Part shown: positions 51,371 through 60,107 of the stretch, piece after piece
Layout of the letters: each line of letters starts with the position of its first letter
How positions within the stretch are numbered: position 1 is the stretch's first letter
Assembly: GCF_002252755.1 (NCBI RefSeq)
Contig: NZ_NHOY01000115.1
Coordinates: 16,381-80,380, forward strand
Length of the DNA: 64,000 bases
DNA from: Halorubrum sp. Hd13
GTDB lineage: Archaea > Halobacteriota > Halobacteria > Halobacteriales > Haloferacaceae
Direction: 5' to 3'
Made by a program: the position numbers and the translations under genes
Notes under the pieces: model-generated
Database searches by the model: none
Seen by the model: the letters and a program-made list of their open reading frames with translations, nothing else
Told to the model about the DNA's origin: nothing

Positions 51371-53419
51371 CTACTCCTCGCCGTCGCCGAACTGCGCGTC
51401 GTAGGCGTTCTGAATCTCGATCTTCGTCCCGCGGCTGATGTCGTCGTAGTCGTACTGCACCCCGTATCGGTCGTTGGTGATCTCGTCGCGGGTCCGGATC
51501 TCGTCGGGAGTCACGTCGTCGGGGAACGGCTGCCGGTTGTAGATCGCCTGCACCTCCCCCGTCTGTTCGGCGTCGAGCTCCGCGAAGTCGGCGTCGTACA
51601 GCGCTCGACTGATGTTGTCGCGGCTGTGCCCCGGGTCGGACGGGAGCGACCCGAACTGCGCGTCGTACGCGTTCTGCACCTCGATCGCGGCGTCGCGATC
51701 CAGCTCGGAGAACGACGCGTTGTATCGGGCGTCGCTTATCTCGTCGCGGGTGTCGACCTCGGCGGGGTCGGCGTCGCCGGGGAACGGCTGCCGGTTGTAG
51801 ATCGCCTGCACTTCGCCGACCGTTTTGCTACCGAGGTCCTCGAAGGCGACGCCGTACTTCGCTCGGCTGATCTCGTCGCGAGAGGTCGGTCCGCCGTCGT
51901 CGGACGCGTCTCCGTCGCCGGTCGACGCAGACCCGCCGGAGTAGTCGCTCTCAGACGTGATCGTGGCGCCGGTCACTGTCGTTACGTTGTACCGGGTGCC
52001 GTTCTCGTTCGCGAGCGCGTCGACGCGCAGTCCGAGGTCGGTCGTGCCGACGGCGTGCCCCTCGATCGCGAGCGTCGCGACGGTGACGCTCCCGTTGTCG
52101 TCGGTGTCCGCGGGCACCGCCGTCACGTTGGCCGCGGCGCCGTCCTCGACGAAGACGACCTCGGTCGTCGCGTCGGACGCGCCGCCCCGCGCGGTGACGT
52201 CCGCCACCGTGGCGTAGGTGACGTCCTCCACGTCGACGGTGAACTCGTAGGCCCCGACGCCGCCGGACGCGTTCGCGACGACCACGTCGTACGTCGTCGT
52301 CTCGCCGGGGTCGACCGTTTCGCCGGTGACCTCCGGTTCGTCGGCGTCGACCGGAACCCCGCTCGGGAGGAGTCGCACGGCGGTCTCGGGACCGGGATCC
52401 GACCGCGCGGCCGCCTCCACGTCGACGACCCCGGTCACGGAGTCGTTCTCGGTGGAGACGCCGTGGCGGTGCGATCCGGGGTCGACGTCGGTCACGTTCA
52501 CGCCGCTGAACGTGACGGTCTCCCTGTCGTGACCCGCGAGCGTCACCTCTCGGGTGGCCACCACCCTGTCGGCTTCGAAGGGCTCGTCGGAATCGACCGT
52601 TTCGTCGGCGGCGGCCGTTCCGTTGCCGGTGGCCGTTTCGTTGCCGGTGGCCGTTCCGTTGCCGGTGGCCGTTCCGTTTCCGACGACCGCTTCGCTGTCG
52701 GCGAGATCGAGTTCGTACCGGACCGTCTGGGTCGCCTCCAGGTCGCCGTCGTTGGTGACCGACACGGAGACGTTGAACGGCTCCCCCTGCGTCACGTTGT
52801 GAGACGCGTTCAGCCTCGACACCCGGAACTCCGCCGGGTCCGGGTTCGGTTCGACCGCGATCGCGGCGCCGCCCACGTCGGTGACGTTGTACGAGTCCCC
52901 GGCGTCGGTGTCGAGCCCGTCGACGCGCAGCCCGACGTCGCTGGTTCCGGGGGCGTCGCCGCCGACCGTCACGGTCGCGACGACGACGCTCCCCCCGTCG
53001 GCCGCGTCCGTCGGTGCGGCCGTCAGGTTGGCCGACGAGCCGTCGGGGGCTATCGAGACCTCGGCCGCCTCGGCGGACTGGTTCCCGCGCAGGGAGACCT
53101 CCCTTATCGAGGCCACGCTCGGGTCGTCGACGCTGACGACGGCGACGTGGTCGCCGACGCCGCCGGACGCGTTCGCGACGACCACGTCGTACGTCGCCGT
53201 CTCGCCCACGCGGACCGTCGCGTCGCTCGGTCCGAGGTGAACCGCGGTTTCGGGAGCCGACGTCGGCTCCTGCTGTTGAGCGAACGGGACGTCGAAGCCG
53301 CCGGTGGGTCCGACGCCAGCGACGGCCCCGCCGATGCCGCCGATGCCGACCACCGCGATCGCCGCGAGGACGACGACGCTCTTCGCGTTGAGCGTCGCGG
53401 AGAGGGAGCCGATGCTCAT
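51371..53419 (-). CDS. Secreted cohesin-like protein with four C-terminal repeats
   Basis: A 682-residue protein. A Sec-type signal (about residues 12-38, SVVVLAAIAVVGIGG) is followed by two cohesin-like modules (about 55-195 and 350-490). They share VGETATYDVVVANASGGVG-type cores, ending GTSDVGLRVDGL and GTTDLGLRVDAL. Between them is a CARDB-like segment rich in N-glycosylation sequons (tandem GNGTAT units). From 514 to 682 come four 39-44 residue repeats that alternate two types: type A with EVQAIYNRQPFP, type B with IEVQNAYDAQFG. No membrane anchor is visible. Its start overlaps the stop of the dockerin-like gene by an ATGA, so the two are translationally coupled and probably interact. Confidence 0.8.
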   Translation of the reverse strand: MSIGSLSATLNAKSVVVLAAIAVVGIGGIGGAVAGVGPTGGFDVPFAQQQEPTSAPETAVHLGPSDATVRVGETATYDVVVANASGGVGDHVAVVSVDDPSVASIREVSLRGNQSAEAAEVSIAPDGSSANLTAAPTDAADGGSVVVATVTVGGDAPGTSDVGLRVDGLDTDAGDSYNVTDVGGAAIAVEPNPDPAEFRVSRLNASHNVTQGEPFNVSVSVTNDGDLEATQTVRYELDLADSEAVVGNGTATGNGTATGNETATGNGTAAADETVDSDEPFEADRVVATREVTLAGHDRETVTFSGVNVTDVDPGSHRHGVSTENDSVTGVVDVEAAARSDPGPETAVRLLPSGVPVDADEPEVTGETVDPGETTTYDVVVANASGGVGAYEFTVDVEDVTYATVADVTARGGASDATTEVVFVEDGAAANVTAVPADTDDNGSVTVATLAIEGHAVGTTDLGLRVDALANENGTRYNVTTVTGATITSESDYSGGSASTGDGDASDDGGPTSRDEISRAKYGVAFEDLGSKTVGEVQAIYNRQPFPGDADPAEVDTRDEISDARYNASFSELDRDAAIEVQNAYDAQFGSLPSDPGHSRDNISRALYDADFAELDAEQTGEVQAIYNRQPFPDDVTPDEIRTRDEITNDRYGVQYDYDDISRGTKIEIQNAYDAQFGDGEE
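52611..52682 (-). repeat. 18-bp tandem repeat in the cohesin-like gene
   Basis: About four near-identical 18-bp units encoding the GNGTAT / GNETAT stretches, each with an Asn-x-Thr sequon. In frame and inside the inter-module linker. Confidence 0.8.
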
Positions 53420-54744
53420 CGGCTCGACACCTCGTTGAACAGCTTCCGGACATCGACGACGTCCACGGCGCCGTCGTCGCTGAAGTCGAACGCGTCCGGG
53501 TGGCTCCGGATCAGCTCGTCGTCCCGGTTCGCGAACATGGCTTCCACGTCGTCGCCGTCGACGTCGCCGTCGCCGTCGACGTCCTCGTAGCGACCGTCCC
53601 CGTCCGGGTCGGTCGGCTGACTCTCGAAGTCGCCTATCGCCTGTCCCCCGAAACAGACGGGGTCGCCGCCGCGGACGGGCTCGACCGACCACGGGACGAA
53701 CTCGACGTCGCCGTCGACCTCGTCTCCCGCCGGGGCCGCCGCCGGGGTCTCCGCCGCGACGGGCCCGGTCGGGTCGCCCCAGAAGTTACACGACGCGACC
53801 GCGGTCTGCGCCGACGCGTTCCGAACGCCGAACTCCTCGTTGCCCTCGATGTCGTTCCCGGTGAACTCGTACTCGGGCGTCGAATCGCCGAAGCCGTCGG
53901 CGACGCCCGATAGCAGGATCCCGGTCCGGTTGCCGACGATCGCGTTTCCGCTGACGGCTCCGCCGCTGGAGGTGAACTCGATCCCCGGACCGTCGTTGTC
54001 CCGGATCTCGTTCCCGACGACGGTGGCGTCGCCGAGGTCCCCCGGCGCGACGAGGCCGATCAGTCGCAGGCCGAACCCGTCGTTGTCGGCGACGGTGTTG
54101 TCGACGAACGTCCCCGCGCCGGTGGCGACGCCGGCGCCGTTGTCTCGCACCGTGCTGCGCTTCAGCTCCGTGACGTGCCCCGAGTTGGTGGACACTGCCG
54201 CATCCGTGTTTCCGCTCAGCGTGGTCTCCGTTATCGATAGCCGGGTGCCCTCAGTGGTGCCGATACCAATTTTGTTTCCGCTGATGACAGAGTTGCGGAC
54301 CGTGATCCGCCTCTCCGGCCCGCCGCGGACCCCGACGGCGTTGTCCGTGATGGAGACGTCCGCGAGCGTTATCTCGCCGTCCGCGAACGCGAGGGACGCG
54401 CCCGCGGCGAAGTTCGCTATCCGCAGGTCTCTGACGACGGCCCCCTCGTCGCGGCCGAGGTCGAACGCGATACCGATCCCCGAGCCGTCGCCGGAGATCG
54501 CGTGTCCGTTCCCGTCCAGCGTGACGCCGGGACCGAGAGTGAGACAGTCGCCCTCCGCGTCGAGGTCGTCGACGAGGACGTACTCGCCCGGTTCGGTCAG
54601 CGACGTGCACCGATTGATCTCCGTCGGTTCGGCGGCCGTCGTGGGGGCTCCGGAGAGCCCGATCGCCGCCCCCCCGACCACGAGACCGCCTCTCTGAAGT
54701 GCTGTTCGGCGCGATATCTTCTCGTCTGGGCCACCGTCGGTCAT
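53416..54744 (-). CDS. Tat-secreted beta-helix protein with C-terminal dockerin-like domain
   Basis: A 442-residue protein. The N-terminal Tat signal reads KISRRTALQRGGLVVGGAA. A right-handed parallel beta-helix follows (NosD/periplasmic copper-binding or pectate-lyase-like repeats, with recurring SGNxIGI, GNEIRDNDGPGIEF and VVGNRTGILLSG turns). The last about 65 residues hold a dockerin-like pair of Ca-binding loops: DVDGDGDVDGDDVEAMF and DFSDDGAVDVVDVRKLF, each with the D-x-D-x-D-G ... D pattern of EF-hands. Such domains bind cohesins. Its gene is directly upstream of the cohesin-like gene. The catalytic role of the beta-helix, if any, is unknown; it could bind carbohydrate. Confidence 0.8.
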   Translation of the reverse strand: MTDGGPDEKISRRTALQRGGLVVGGAAIGLSGAPTTAAEPTEINRCTSLTEPGEYVLVDDLDAEGDCLTLGPGVTLDGNGHAISGDGSGIGIAFDLGRDEGAVVRDLRIANFAAGASLAFADGEITLADVSITDNAVGVRGGPERRITVRNSVISGNKIGIGTTEGTRLSITETTLSGNTDAAVSTNSGHVTELKRSTVRDNGAGVATGAGTFVDNTVADNDGFGLRLIGLVAPGDLGDATVVGNEIRDNDGPGIEFTSSGGAVSGNAIVGNRTGILLSGVADGFGDSTPEYEFTGNDIEGNEEFGVRNASAQTAVASCNFWGDPTGPVAAETPAAAPAGDEVDGDVEFVPWSVEPVRGGDPVCFGGQAIGDFESQPTDPDGDGRYEDVDGDGDVDGDDVEAMFANRDDELIRSHPDAFDFSDDGAVDVVDVRKLFNEVSSR

Positions 54745-55167: not shown

Positions 55168-55731
55168 ATGTGTTTAGTGATGATTAAAGGGGTAGAGGGA
55201 AGCCAAATCAACGAATCCGCCGAAACCGGGGACGGCCAGCGGTTGACGACGACCAACGTGTTCGACGTTCTCAAGAACGACCGGCGGCGGGCGGTCATGC
55301 GGTACCTCCACGAGCACGGCGGATCCGCGGAGCTCTCCGACGTCGCCGAACACGTCGCCGCGCGCGAAAACGACACCGCCGTTCGACAGCTCACCTCGCA
55401 GGAGCGGAAGCGCGTTCGCATCGCCCTCTATCAGTGTCACCTCCCGCGGATGGACGCGCTCGGGGTGGTCGACTTCGACAACGACCGCGGGACGGTCGCG
55501 CTTCGGGACGCCGCGTCGCAGGTTCAGGTGTACCTGGAGTTGGATCCCGAGGCCGACCGGAACGCGGCCGCGTCGGAGCGGACCGCGTTCCTGCTCGCCG
55601 TGGGTATCGCGGCGGTCGTCACGGCCGGAGCGCTCGGGCTCGGAGTGCTCTCGGCGGTGCCTCCGGCCGGATGGACGATGGTGAGCGTCCTCGCGCTCGT
55701 CGGGATCGCCGGTCGGCAGTGGCGGGCCTGA
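55168..55731 (+). CDS. DUF7344 (winged-helix-like) protein with two membrane helices
   Basis: A 187-residue protein. The DUF7344 domain runs from VFDVLKNDRRRAVMRYLHEH through LTSQERKRVRIALYQCHLPR to GVVDFDNDRGTVALRD. This haloarchaeal family looks like a winged helix and is often found in regulators. The C-terminal part has two membrane helices (FLLAVGIAAVVTAGALGLGV and WTMVSVLALVGIAG). It may therefore be a membrane-bound regulator. An in-frame ATG at 55180 (MIKGVEGS) is an alternative start. It sits divergently from the dockerin/cohesin operon and could control it (inference from position only). Confidence 0.75.
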   Translation: MCLVMIKGVEGSQINESAETGDGQRLTTTNVFDVLKNDRRRAVMRYLHEHGGSAELSDVAEHVAARENDTAVRQLTSQERKRVRIALYQCHLPRMDALGVVDFDNDRGTVALRDAASQVQVYLELDPEADRNAAASERTAFLLAVGIAAVVTAGALGLGVLSAVPPAGWTMVSVLALVGIAGRQWRA

Positions 55732-55845
55732 ACGGGGGTTCCGGATCCGCGGTCTTCCCGCCGCGTTAACAGAAGCATACCGGGAGCCGGCGAGCGACGG
55801 GACCGGCTCGAGAGCGGGCGTGGACCGAAATCCAGTGTTTACGTC

Positions 55846-55854
55846 TTTATAACA
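55846..55854 (+). promoter_or_regulatory. TATA box for the PadR-family gene
   Basis: The sequence ctttataac is centred about 32 bp before the ATG at 55882. Confidence 0.5.
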
Positions 55855-55881
55855 AAGCGAGGGTCCGGCGAAACGTGGACC

Positions 55882-56166
55882 ATGCCTGATCCCCTTTTCG
55901 AGCTCACGAGCTTCCAACGGGATCTCCTCTACGTGATCGCGGGAGCCGAGAGACCGTCGGGACAAGAGATCAAAACGGAGCTACAGACGTCGATGGATGA
56001 AATCACCCACGGCCGGCTCTATCCGAACCTCGATACGCTGGTCGAGCGGGGGTACATCGAAAAGGGCGAGAGCGACCGTCGCACGAACTTCTACGAGCTG
56101 ACGGAGAAGGGGATGGAGGGCCTCCGCGAACGCCGCCAGTGGGAGGGCCGCTACGTGGAGCTGTGA
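55882..56166 (+). CDS. PadR-family transcriptional regulator
   Basis: A 94-residue winged-helix protein. The PadR pattern is visible: FQRDLLYVIAGAERPSGQEI, GRLYPNLDTLVERGYIEKGE and NFYELTEKGMEGLRERRQ. It should bind DNA as a dimer, but its target is not known. Short PadR proteins of this size are common in haloarchaea. It is convergent with the HTH-10 gene and downstream of the DUF7344 gene, so the cluster is a small regulator group. Confidence 0.9.
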   Translation: MPDPLFELTSFQRDLLYVIAGAERPSGQEIKTELQTSMDEITHGRLYPNLDTLVERGYIEKGESDRRTNFYELTEKGMEGLRERRQWEGRYVEL

Positions 56167-56271: not shown

Positions 56272-58794
56272 TCAGTCGCCGGCGTCGACGTCGCCGAGAA
56301 TCGTTCCGAGCAGCTTCCGCTCGGCGGTTCGGAGGTGGCGATTGAACGTAGGTTGGGTGATGTCCATCGCCGTCGCGACCTCCTCGCCGGTGCTCGCTCG
56401 CGGCCACTCGAAGTAGCCGCCGAGGTACGCCGTTTCGATCGCTTCCCGCTGCCTGTCAGTGAGTCCGTCGGAGAAGCCGGTCCGAGCGCCGGGACCGTCG
56501 CTCCCGGATCGGTCCCGACGGGAGCGGAGCTCGACGCGGTCGTACCGCTCCTCGAGGTGTTCGATTATCCGCCGCACGTCCACTGACCGCGGGAAGGTGG
56601 TCGTCAGTTCCACGCCGCCGGCGTCGGCGACCATCCGGCCGATACTCCCCCCGTGTGCGCTCACCCTGTCGGCCGCGGTGGCGCCGTTCACCGACGCCTC
56701 CAGGCGCCCGGTCGGTCCGCCGCCCATCTCGCGGATCGACTCCACGGCGCTCACCGACTCCGTCACGTCGGACCGGTCCCCGTCGCTGGTGAGGTACACC
56801 AGCGATCGACCGTCTCCCCGCGGGACGGTGCCCTCGACCCGGATCGGCTCCCCGAAGGCGGACGCGATCCGCGACAGGAGCGCGTCGGGGTCGTCGAGGC
56901 GCAGCTCCAGCTCCACGAGGGAGCCGGTTCGAAGCGACCGCCTGGTTTCCACGCTGCTGATGGCGTTCGCGACGTTGTCTCCGAGCTCGACGAGCAGGTC
57001 GCCGAACTCGTCGTCGAACACCGACCCCCGGTCGGCGTACACGGACAGGACGCCGTAACACAGGTCATCGTACGAGAGCGGGACGCTGACGACCGAGCGG
57101 TATCCGCGCGCGAGCGCTCGCTCCCGCCAGCGCTCGCGCCTGAGCCCGTCCGACACGTCGGACACGCGGACGGGCTCGCCCGTCTCGACGGCTCGGACGC
57201 CCGGGAGCCCGGCGGTGTCGGCGGAGCGGTCGCCGCCGTCGGCCCCCGGAAGCGGAGCGTCCTCGCGCCGGAGCGCCTCGAGGAAGCCGTCGGACTCGCC
57301 CGCCCGCGCCATCGGGGTCGGATCGCCGCCGGATCGGTACGTCTCCCCGACCCAGACGAACTCGACGGAGTCGGCCTCGACGAGCGTGTCGCAGACGGCT
57401 GTCGCGATCTCGTCGAGGGTGTCCGCGTCGACGAGCTCGCCGTTGATCCGCCTGAGGAGGTCGTTGAGCCCGTCGAGACGCTCCAGTCGCTGTCGGTTCC
57501 GGGAGAGCTCGGTCTCGCGCTCGACGCTGTCGAGGGCCGCGACGGCGTTGGCGGCCAACAGGCCGACCGGCTCCTCGACGTTCCCCGCCGGCTCCGCGGA
57601 GCCGAAGTCGACGCGGAAGAGGCCGTGTCCGTCGAGCGTCGCGTACAGGGTGCGACCGGACGAGTCGTCGGGCTCGGTCGATCGCTCGACCACCCGCCCA
57701 GTCGGAGCGACCGCGTCCGCGTCGGTCGACGGGTCACCGCCGGAGGGGTCGTCCCCCGCGGCGTCGGCGACCCGCTGGAAGTGCGGGGAGGCGTCGTCGT
57801 CCGTCCGGACCGATCGGGCCGTGTCGATCGTCGTCTCGGCGGCGTCGGACCCGGCGGTGAACGCCTCCCAGACCGGGCTTCCCGGCCCGCACGCGTCGTG
57901 GTCGCCGCCGGACGCGGCGGCGGGGACCAGCCTCGCTTCGGTCCGGTCGAACGAGTACGTCACGACGGCGGCGTCGGGCCAGACCGAGGCGATCACGTCG
58001 ACGATCGTCTCGAAGATCGATTCCCCGTCGTCGGCGCGGAGGAGCCGCCGGGCGGAGCGGCTCAGTTCGCGGAGGGCGCTCTCGTTCCGCCGGGTGTCGG
58101 TCACGTCCCTGATGACGCCGACGCGCCCGCGACGGCCGTCGTCGAACTCGACCGAGGAGAACTGCGTCTCGATCGGCAGCAGTTCTCCCGACGCCGTCCT
58201 TATCGACGACTCGATCATGCCGATGTCGGAGCCGTCGCCGCGGAGCATCGCGAGGATCTCCTCGGCCTTTTCGAGCGTCTCGCTCCCCGCGACCATCGAC
58301 GCGTGCGACCCGACGAGCTCCTCGCGGTCGTACCCCGTCATCTCCGTGACCGCCTCGTTGACCGACGTGATGACGAACGCCTCGTTCAGCGTGTACACGC
58401 CGTCCTCCAGCGTCTCGAGGATGCGGTTCGACCGCCTGAGGTCGCGGCGCAGCTCGAAGTCCCGGGTGGCGTCGGAGACGAGCACGCCGACGCCGCCGCG
58501 GCCCGGGACCGCCCGGAACTGGAGCGTCGTTCCGTCGCCGGTCGTGACCTCCGTCTCGGCGACCCGGTCGTTCCGCTCGGCCGCCTCGACGGCGTCCCGA
58601 AGCTCCGGACCGAAGCTCGGGTCCGTCTCGCGCAGGTCGGTGCCGACCGACGCGTCGTCGGAGCCGAGCAGGTCGTCGACCGTCGCGTTCGCGTCGGCGA
58701 TCGCGTGCGAGCCGTCCGCGTACAGGAATCCGATGTCGGCCGTCGCGAGGAACTGACCGATCGCCGCCCGGTGGTCGGCGTCTCTCAGGTCCAT
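56272..58794 (-). CDS. Bacterio-opsin activator-like regulator (PAS, GAF, HTH-10)
   Basis: An 840-residue sensor-regulator. In order: a PAS-like fold (about 10-115, ADIGFLYADGSHAIADANAT), a second PAS with its PAC strand (about 125-245, ILETLEDGVYTLNEAFVITS, SVNEAVTEMTGYDREEL), a GAF-like domain (about 255-450), a second GAF domain (about 470-620, VSVPLSYDDLCYGVLSVYAD), a Bat-associated domain and a C-terminal HTH-10 (LTDRQREAIETAYLGGYFEW, then MDITQPTFNRHLRTAERKLL). This is the haloarchaeal Bat architecture that senses light or redox and activates genes. The target here is unknown. The start at 58794 (MDLRDADHRAAIGQFL) is preferred to an in-frame upstream codon (58887). Confidence 0.88.
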   Translation of the reverse strand: MDLRDADHRAAIGQFLATADIGFLYADGSHAIADANATVDDLLGSDDASVGTDLRETDPSFGPELRDAVEAAERNDRVAETEVTTGDGTTLQFRAVPGRGGVGVLVSDATRDFELRRDLRRSNRILETLEDGVYTLNEAFVITSVNEAVTEMTGYDREELVGSHASMVAGSETLEKAEEILAMLRGDGSDIGMIESSIRTASGELLPIETQFSSVEFDDGRRGRVGVIRDVTDTRRNESALRELSRSARRLLRADDGESIFETIVDVIASVWPDAAVVTYSFDRTEARLVPAAASGGDHDACGPGSPVWEAFTAGSDAAETTIDTARSVRTDDDASPHFQRVADAAGDDPSGGDPSTDADAVAPTGRVVERSTEPDDSSGRTLYATLDGHGLFRVDFGSAEPAGNVEEPVGLLAANAVAALDSVERETELSRNRQRLERLDGLNDLLRRINGELVDADTLDEIATAVCDTLVEADSVEFVWVGETYRSGGDPTPMARAGESDGFLEALRREDAPLPGADGGDRSADTAGLPGVRAVETGEPVRVSDVSDGLRRERWRERALARGYRSVVSVPLSYDDLCYGVLSVYADRGSVFDDEFGDLLVELGDNVANAISSVETRRSLRTGSLVELELRLDDPDALLSRIASAFGEPIRVEGTVPRGDGRSLVYLTSDGDRSDVTESVSAVESIREMGGGPTGRLEASVNGATAADRVSAHGGSIGRMVADAGGVELTTTFPRSVDVRRIIEHLEERYDRVELRSRRDRSGSDGPGARTGFSDGLTDRQREAIETAYLGGYFEWPRASTGEEVATAMDITQPTFNRHLRTAERKLLGTILGDVDAGD

Positions 58795-59096
58795 CGACTC
58801 ACCGTCGCGAATCGGCCTCCACCCCGGCCCGGTTTGAACACGACGACACGAGCGCCCGGGTACACATAAATCTCTCGTCACTTTCACGGAACACTATATT
58901 TCTCAGTGACATCAGTTCGAAATATCGACTGAGACGAGAGCCGGACCGGGAAACGACGGATGAAAATCCCGGTTACGGAGCTTATATTTTGCCAAATATT
59001 CATATGAAGTATCGTGATTGTCACGCTTTCGTACTTATTATCATAATAAAAATGTGGAACAAAAGCCTTAACTGTGTTATGGTGGTGTTTACTGAC
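58795..59096. other. AT-rich leader region before the terpene synthase-like gene
   Basis: No gene. Markedly richer in A+T than the rest of the window, with several TATA-like stretches (cttatattttg near 58980, cttattatcataataaa near 59034-59050). Which is the promoter is unclear. Overlapping in-frame codons upstream of 59097 would add a hydrophobic segment (VLIIIIKMW) that is unlike the rest of the protein. Confidence 0.5.
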
Positions 59097-60107
59097 ATGG
59101 CACCCGAAGCTCGCGGGAACGTGGCGAACGACGGATGGGGGAAACCGGACCCCGGAGAGTACAGCCGGCGTGTGAACGATGTTACGCTCCCCCCAACCGC
59201 GCGGGAGTTCGCGGATCGCTACGCTCGCGTCATCGGGGAGCGGGATCGGTTCCTCTGGAAGTGGATACACAACCTCTTCGATAAGTTCACGTTAACGTCG
59301 GTTCCGGGCCGAGAACGGTCGGCCGTGTACGAACACAAGACGCTGTTGACGATGTTCGTGACGGTCCTCGATGACTTGGCCGAAAGCGAGGGGGATCAGG
59401 GGACGTTCGCCGTCGGTCGCCGGATTCCGTTCGGCGTCGACGCGACCGAGCGGATAGACGGGACGTCCGACGAGATCGACTACGGCGTCCTCGAATACCT
59501 CGCGGATCTGTGGGAGACGATCGACGCGGAGGTCAGGGAGGCGCCGCGGTACGGGGAGTTCGTCGACGTCTTCGAGTACGACCTCCGGCAGACGTTCAAC
59601 GCGATGGAGTACTCCGGGCTCGTGAACGACAACCCGGCGATGGCGAACCGCGCCGAGACGGAGCGTCACGACGCGTACAACATGACGATGTTCCCGTACG
59701 CCTGCGTCGACCTCATGCACTCGCCCTCGTTCGACCGGGCCGAGCTGGGCGCGCTTCGAAGCATCCTCTGTGACCTCCAGCAGATGGCGCGGATCGGGAA
59801 CTGGATCACCACCTGGGAGCGCGAGCTCGGCGAGGGAGACATCAGCTCCGGCGTCGTCGTCTGCGCGCTCCGTCGCGGCGTAATCGACTACGAAGAAATC
59901 GTCGAGGCCGACGAGACCGCCATCGAGGGGCTGGTCGACCGGATCCGGTCGCACGGCATCGAATCGGAGTTCACCCGCGAGTGGGACCTCCGCGACCGGA
60001 CGGTCCGGAAGCGGACCGCCGAGGTGGAGAGCGTCGACGCGGAGCAGATCGTCGACGGTATCGAGTCGGTGATGAACCACCACCTCGCGAGCGAGGGATA
60101 CAAGTAA
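59097..60107 (+). CDS. Candidate class I terpene synthase
   Basis: A 336-residue, mainly helical protein. An Asp-rich motif VLDDLAESEGD lies at about residues 91-100 (DDxxE). The second metal-binding motif (NSE type: N-x-x-x-S/T-x-x-x-E) appears as NWITTWERE at 235-243, with N235, T239 and E243. The spacing between the two motifs (143 residues) matches bacterial class I terpene cyclases such as pentalenene synthase (about 140). Before the NSE motif a Tyr/Arg-rich stretch (RAETERHDAYNMTMFP) fits the effector region. It should cyclise a prenyl diphosphate (C15, C20 or C25) with Mg. The start ATG at 59097 begins a charged, non-hydrophobic N-terminus. No prenyltransferase or P450 gene is adjacent. 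Confidence 0.7.
   Translation: MAPEARGNVANDGWGKPDPGEYSRRVNDVTLPPTAREFADRYARVIGERDRFLWKWIHNLFDKFTLTSVPGRERSAVYEHKTLLTMFVTVLDDLAESEGDQGTFAVGRRIPFGVDATERIDGTSDEIDYGVLEYLADLWETIDAEVREAPRYGEFVDVFEYDLRQTFNAMEYSGLVNDNPAMANRAETERHDAYNMTMFPYACVDLMHSPSFDRAELGALRSILCDLQQMARIGNWITTWERELGEGDISSGVVVCALRRGVIDYEEIVEADETAIEGLVDRIRSHGIESEFTREWDLRDRTVRKRTAEVESVDAEQIVDGIESVMNHHLASEGYK

Follow-up and report, generated by a model that had tools for sequence, protein, structure and literature searches.

A putative class I terpene synthase gene of Halorubrum paired with a divergent Bat-type regulator, and its receiver-fused relatives

A gene at positions 59097..60107 of a 64,000-nucleotide stretch of Halorubrum sp. 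Hd13 (contig NZ_NHOY01000115.1, positions 16,381 to 80,380; the whole of this stretch is 'the window') probably encodes a class I terpene synthase, that is, an enzyme making a terpene, with its expression likely controlled by an adjoining, divergently oriented regulator of the Bat type. Such an enzyme likely would ionise a prenyl diphosphate, its presumptive substrate being geranylgeranyl diphosphate (GGPP) or farnesyl diphosphate (FPP), and would convert it to a terpene; Mg2+-dependent ionisation and then cyclisation would be expected from known class I chemistry. The findings as a whole would be most simply explained if archaea had, on repeated occasions, brought members of one class I terpene synthase family under signal control. 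In the window the route to that control would be an adjoining one-component regulator of PAS/GAF type; elsewhere it would be adjoining two-component sensors or fusion to a receiver domain. The gene and its motifs are as follows:

59097..60107, forward strand: class I terpene synthase-like gene, 336 amino acids, with its ATG at 59097 and its stop at 60105-60107
59370..59384, forward strand: codons of DDLAE (residues 92-96), the aspartate-rich metal-binding motif, with D92 and D93 in 75/75 of alignment A2
59799..59825, forward strand: codons of NWITTWERE (residues 235-243), an NSE/DTE-type motif conserved in alignments A2 and A3

The open reading frame, its coordinates, and both motifs had been put forward by an earlier, sequence-only reading of this DNA, and these prove to be exact, the motifs being spaced by 143 residues. 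By themselves the two patterns are weak evidence. That is, 84 of 5000 shuffles of the protein hold both at a spacing of 120-170 residues, as do three of the 168 open stretches of at least 200 amino acids in the window, the synthase itself counted. The motifs rise above chance because they are conserved across aligned members. In A2, i.e., 75 aligned family members including the query, D92, D93, N235, T239, R242, and E243 are invariant (75/75), with residue 96 being E in 61 members and D in the other 14. In the wider set of 32 that is A3, D93, N235, T239, R242, and E243 again are invariant (32/32), with residue 92 being D in 30 and N in 2. The aspartate-rich motif, as DDxxD/E, is used as a criterion for class I terpene synthases in an excerpt of PMC10563020. 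Open reading frames were called from length and acidity, without a gene finder, and one locus (L012) in which no synthase was so called is present in alignment A1 but stands outside of A2, A3, and the neighbour analysis described below. The synthase is single-copy, with no second copy found in the 3.81 Mb genome at E <= 0.001. Homologues of the protein number 285 at that same threshold and, among the 120 of these that were listed, most are unnamed, the named ones are mostly hypothetical proteins, and two are named terpene synthase.

At the level of fold, the reading of this protein as a class I terpene synthase holds, and so passes the structural test that the sequence-only reading had set for it. 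The predicted structure is confident and all-alpha and, upon alignment of this model with VIA-align, all 50 of the entries listed are terpene synthases, at 6-14 percent identity; structural matches include taxadiene, selinadiene, and T-muurolol synthases. Relatives point in the same direction, since their top Pfam matches are two terpene synthase models: among A2 members at E <= 1, 54/75 match PF19086 and 17/75 match PF03936. Comparison of the window protein itself with terpene synthase profiles, a check which had been proposed along with the original reading, came out in part only. That is, PF19086 (Terpene_syn_C_2) is matched, with an E of 0.0023, but at 18.2 bits versus a gathering cut-off of 23.7 bits, and because its own score is under that cut-off the synthase is without formal PF19086 membership.

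This shortfall counts against the terpene synthase reading, as do several further results. NCBIfam has no match to the protein, PDB sequence searches using either the protein or a profile gave no terpene synthase, and Foldseek with the predicted model is weaker (best E 3.2e-4), listing isoprenyl diphosphate synthases too. No isoprenoid gene is seen next to the synthase in the window. Alignment, in addition, reveals neither a conserved arginine at residues 185-196, about where the diphosphate-sensor arginine would be expected, nor a conserved RY pair near the C-terminus of aligned members. In class I terpene synthases, sensor arginine and RY pair serve to bind diphosphate. Four other arginines, R49, R221, R232, and R242, are invariant in the alignments and could serve as the diphosphate-binding residues.

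Two other functions may be considered in light of these results. The first is that of an enzyme which has the class I fold but which transfers a prenyl group, or releases diphosphate, without cyclisation, for instance a linear prenyl alcohol synthase or instead a prenyltransferase using another acceptor. The isoprenyl diphosphate synthases among the best Foldseek rows, the lack of conservation of sensor arginine and RY pair, and the naming by a source of one relative (P0247) as Polyprenyl synthetase all lean in that direction. Such a function is nonetheless distinctly unlikely, as one DDxxE along with one NxxxTxxxE is the terpene synthase pattern, rather than two DDxxD motifs, and as the listed VIA-align entries and the leading Pfam matches of relatives both are of terpene synthases. 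The second is that of a catalytically dead, terpene synthase-like protein whose role would be to bind a prenyl compound within a sensory pathway. Although the family is associated with signalling proteins, and sensor arginine and RY pair are not evident, this we view as very improbable: D92, D93, N235, T239, and E243 are retained in 75/75 members, and both motif patterns are present in all 57 of the receiver-fused proteins described below.

As a putative terpene synthase, the window protein may be compared with the class I enzymes of bacteria, fungi, and plants, which it resembles in its predicted alpha fold and in its possession of DDxxE and NxxxTxxxE about 140 residues apart. It differs from them in sequence, being only 6-14 percent identical by VIA-align and under the Pfam cut-off, in its family's having W rather than D after the motif asparagine (70/75), and in that no conserved sensor arginine or RY pair is seen. 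The family differs also in its surroundings, often adjoining PAS sensors, with another clade fused to receivers. The adjoining regulator in the window, along with the DNA between it and the synthase, consists of the following:

56272..58794, reverse strand: Bat-type regulator of PAS-GAF-BAT-HTH_10 architecture, with its ATG at 58794; the open frame extends to 58887 with GTG
58795..59096, no strand given: shared divergent promoter region, GC 0.464
59011..59040, forward strand: conserved upstream element ATCGTGATTGTCACGCTTTCGTACTTATTA, 30 nt, starting 86 nt before the ATG
59066..59073, forward strand: putative TATA-like box ccttaact, as suggested by the sequence and an alignment of 14 loci
58875..58888, no strand given: half-site like the element but weaker, lying towards the regulator (p 0.015 in the window)

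Bat, the bacterio-opsin activator of Halobacterium, acts on bop and carotenoid genes. The window's regulator has the same PAS-GAF-BAT-HTH_10 architecture (Pfam: BAT 4.5e-33, HTH_10 4.3e-18, GAF_2 7e-17, PAS_9 1.5e-13), but differs from Bat in adjoining a terpene synthase-like gene, and Pfam finds no N-terminal receiver domain in it. There are no PDB sequence matches to the regulator. Bat is described, in an excerpt of PMC5847659, as a light- and redox-sensing regulator, and as one whose receiver domain had gone unrecognised. By what is reported for Bat, the window's regulator would sense light, redox, or a ligand through its PAS/GAF domains. Its HTH_10 domain would bind the upstream element.

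As judged from comparisons among genomes, the regulator is co-inherited with the synthase. Among the loci fetched, 18, counting the window (L084), have a regulator homologue next to the synthase, and in 14 of these the two genes are divergent. In three others (L054, L056, L057) the regulator instead lies upstream in tandem, separated from the synthase by a HalOD1 gene, and in one (L055) it is in tandem downstream. Bat-like proteins are common, that is, found in 382/391 genomes at 1e-40 using the regulator as query (two first-look candidates were taken per genome, so weaker paralogues are undercounted). In all of the 14 best genomes, however, the matched gene and the synthase are divergent; these matches score 488-1804 bits, versus 294 bits for the next genome. 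Similarly, within the window's genus, the nine synthase-bearing genomes have a regulator match of 2.8e-146 or better, while none of the 37 without a synthase has one better than 1.4e-70. Distances among regulators and among synthases over the 18 pairs are correlated (r 0.96, equalled in 0/2000 shuffles), though shared ancestry alone would raise r too. A further comparison locus, L131, entered the tblastn search only.

The DNA between the two genes would appear to be where this control is exercised. The GC content of the leader, 58888-59096, is 0.397 versus 0.703 for the window, and the 330 nt upstream of the synthase are AT-rich in 14/14 divergent loci (GC 0.39-0.53). As the leader is AT-rich in all of these loci and also holds the conserved element, we read it as a regulated, leaderless-type promoter, with the element at 59011..59040 likely an activator site. 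Seeds for the element were chosen by eye from the 14-locus alignment, prior to testing with a held-out matrix, i.e., one from whose construction the tested locus and its near relatives were excluded. By that test the element is found at p <= 0.01 in 8/14 loci (L084, L002, L046-L050, L052), and where significant it starts 86-88 nt before the ATG. With the conserved element 86 nt upstream and the TATA-like box about 27 nt upstream, an ATG start at 59097 fits, and the position of the box is consistent with a leaderless start there. The half-site on the regulator side reaches p < 0.05 in 6/10 loci tested, using a matrix built without any hold-out. Across the genome, TGANNNTCACGNNNTCGTAC is matched exactly once, and with one mismatch six times; allowing up to two mismatches gives 138 matches in all, versus 12 for the reversed pattern. 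Weak matches are common, and nothing is concluded from them.

Sensors are seen next to the synthase beyond Bat as well. Neighbour statistics are based on 60 of 61 chosen loci, L073 having been left out as no synthase open reading frame was called in it. Among the 120 immediate neighbours, PAS_9 is found 27 times, BAT and HTH_10 17 times each, and HATPase_c 11 times. Among 115 genes four places away, PAS_9, BAT, and HTH_10 are each found twice, while HATPase_c is absent from the 25 families listed and is found once by local hidden Markov model (HMM). A PAS neighbour is present in 27/60 loci and, by parsimony on the tree, there have been nine changes between possession of a PAS neighbour and none. 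The type of sensor varies by clade: Bat type; PAS-HATPase (L060, L062, L063); REC-PAS-kinase (L088); or, in family f13, PAS kinases (L107, L112, L114, L115). Further clades have FilR1-type regulators as neighbours.

Certain observations speak against this linkage being one of control. Four genomes of genus g29 that are without a synthase (L126-L129) encode a Bat protein, sharing 49-53 percent identity with the L057 one, and three of these (L127-L129) keep both Bat and HalOD1 genes, with no synthase between HalOD1 and the next gene, where in L130 one is present. The Bat regulator thus is not bound to the synthase everywhere, as these g29 genomes have the former without the latter. In addition, 33/60 loci have no PAS neighbour, the upstream element is not significant in 6/14 loci (L044, L045, L051, L058, L059, L061), and neither the neighbour counts nor the r value are corrected for shared ancestry. 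It might be, then, that the synthase is real but that its pairing with PAS sensors is mere hitch-hiking, i.e., a moving together by chance and without functional link, as Bat without synthase in g29, loci without a PAS neighbour, and counts uncorrected for ancestry all would allow. We nevertheless consider hitch-hiking to be unlikely, as Bat-synthase linkage survives altered gene orientation, separate clades have different sensor types adjoining the synthase, the synthase has a conserved element upstream, and another clade is fused outright to receivers.

Those fusions are found among relatives, the window gene itself being unfused and a member of the Bat-linked clade. The protein at L076:8762-10276 combines Response_reg (8.3e-17) and HalX (8.1e-07) with a terpene synthase region, and that at L011:7524-8966 is a longer family member with Response_reg (3.4e-18). 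A search using the synthase part of the L076 fusion gave 216 proteins and, among the 120 of these listed, 55 are receiver-synthase fusions by local HMM, or 54 by precomputed Pfam. No fusions are present among the 120 listed of the window gene's 285 homologues, nor among 28 further relatives. Of fused proteins, 57/57 keep both synthase motif patterns, 56/57 have the receiver KP, and 49/57 fit the phospho-aspartate pattern. In a 49-row alignment of fusions (A6), D57 is invariant (49/49) and K104 is found in 90 percent or more, and by Pfam 48 of these have Response_reg, 44 HalX, and 19 PF19086. These proteins therefore begin as do the REC-HalX response regulators of haloarchaea but differ from them in that a terpene synthase domain, some 330 residues long, follows in frame. 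The predicted model of one fusion (P0153; pLDDT 83.5, pTM 0.65, with pLDDT of 48-73 over residues 121-190) consists of an alternating strand-helix domain, long helices, and an all-alpha domain. Phosphorylation of the receiver in these fused relatives would control the same kind of enzyme directly. In a 63-row tree, which is a quick one with many weak forks and includes 23 of the 57 fused proteins plus hand-picked unfused ones, most fusions share one clade, which also holds some unfused members, the L011 fusion is apart, and five changes are counted. Where a source has named fused relatives, the names are CheY-like, OmpR-family, or response regulator.

A bolder possibility is that terpene synthases are signal-transduction outputs whose product, a diffusible terpene, is read by the paired PAS/GAF sensor, making of the two an archaeal synthase-receptor pair akin to LuxI/LuxR. 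The PAS/GAF regulator, or the fused receiver once phosphorylated, would then turn on terpene production. We regard this as speculative and, indeed, as rather improbable.

Contrary to the earlier supposition that terpene cyclases are rare in archaea, this family is not rare among haloarchaea: its profile matches 120/391 sampled genomes of the class, in 39/86 genera, including 9/46 genomes of the window's own genus. The Pfam model hides the family, as its cut-off is passed in only 10/392 genomes of the phylum. A wider profile matches 38/392 phylum genomes, 17 of these outside of the class (families f13, f15, f29), though some of those out-of-class matches are present only as fragments or with an internal stop. 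Both family scans took up to five first-look candidates per genome, and weaker paralogues accordingly are undercounted. Separately, in f13, distant members at loci L112, L114, and L115 (E 6e-28 to 1e-29 and weaker) adjoin a PAS kinase.

Lateral exchange of the synthase within haloarchaea is likely, as the gene is patchy within the genus (9/46), has a suggestive tree position, and is found on large plasmid records. In a tree of 59 members, the window gene groups with L044, of the same genus, and with L002; genus g2 joins this group next (support 90), ahead of other rows of the window's genus, g1, and the 11-row clade that holds the window gene covers families f1, f3, and f7. Six plasmid records, five of more than 430 kb and the sixth of 398 kb, bear a family member, annotated as hypothetical protein. 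The sequence-only reading had instead taken the AT-rich leader as a hint of lateral gain. The leader is AT-rich indeed, but as a sign of such gain it is ruled out, the leader being a conserved promoter and the coding GC3 of the synthase, 0.878 versus a median of 0.916 for 42 long open reading frames, being ordinary.

As to precedent, haloarchaeal terpene clusters typically rest on phytoene synthase, which is another family, though these clusters and bacterioruberin draw on the same precursor pool as would the window's synthase. 'Terpene clusters' are reported in haloarchaea in an excerpt of PMC8600319, and bacterioruberin is described as a membrane terpene of haloarchaea in part of PMC10105419. 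Examples of archaeal terpene synthases are called rare in a portion of PMC12797696, which cites a preprint by Samusevich et al. on how archaea make terpenoids. Within the open literature, including excerpts of PMC9768965 and PMC12144867, and with most preprints and subscription papers falling outside of it, no report was found of these genes as terpene synthases, nor of Bat-synthase pairing or of receiver-synthase fusions. By its title, the Samusevich et al. preprint (bioRxiv 10.1101/2024.01.29.577750) reportedly finds archaeal terpenoid biosynthesis by means of structure-based prediction.

If the terpene synthase reading and that of its control are both true, then these salt-loving archaea would make a terpene on cue. 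Archaeal secondary metabolism is largely uncharted and, as of 2023, no archaeal gene cluster besides those for halocin and bacterioruberin had been confidently linked to a product, according to the same excerpt of PMC10105419. The family would supply a candidate terpene enzyme for nearly a third of sampled haloarchaeal genomes (120/391), one filed, where named, mostly as hypothetical protein. Receiver fusions would allow for direct switching of a terpene synthase by phosphorylation, and pairing with Bat suggests which cue to try.

No biosynthetic cluster was found around the window gene among the neighbours examined, which are the regulator, a PadR gene, two DUF7344 genes, a beta-helix protein, a nucleotidyl transferase, an amidohydrolase, and a hexapeptide-repeat fragment. 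Elsewhere, in family f4 (L071, L086, L087, L090, L092, L093), the synthase is flanked by genes for a metallo-beta-lactamase fold protein and a Cys/Met metabolism PLP enzyme, one on either side. Methyltransf_11 is found in 4/120 immediate neighbours, L013 and L112 among these; as to a link with C-methylated terpenes, solved-structure matches of the methyltransferases do not point specifically to a prenyl diphosphate methyltransferase.

Within the window, small regulators of DUF7344 and PadR type lie beyond the Bat gene (55168-56166) and are retained in the closest relatives, L044 and L002. At 53416-54744, on the reverse strand, there is a beta-helix/NosD-like protein whose start is twin-arginine-like and whose C-terminus resembles a calcium loop. 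At L013:195-5058, on a contig of 28-33 percent GC that is binned as Lysobacteraceae, a methyltransferase gene lies upstream of a 33 percent identical family member and a polyprenyl synthetase gene (E 1.6e-54) lies downstream of it, with sensor-like open reading frames between. Lastly, L086:8325-10707 holds two synthase genes in tandem.
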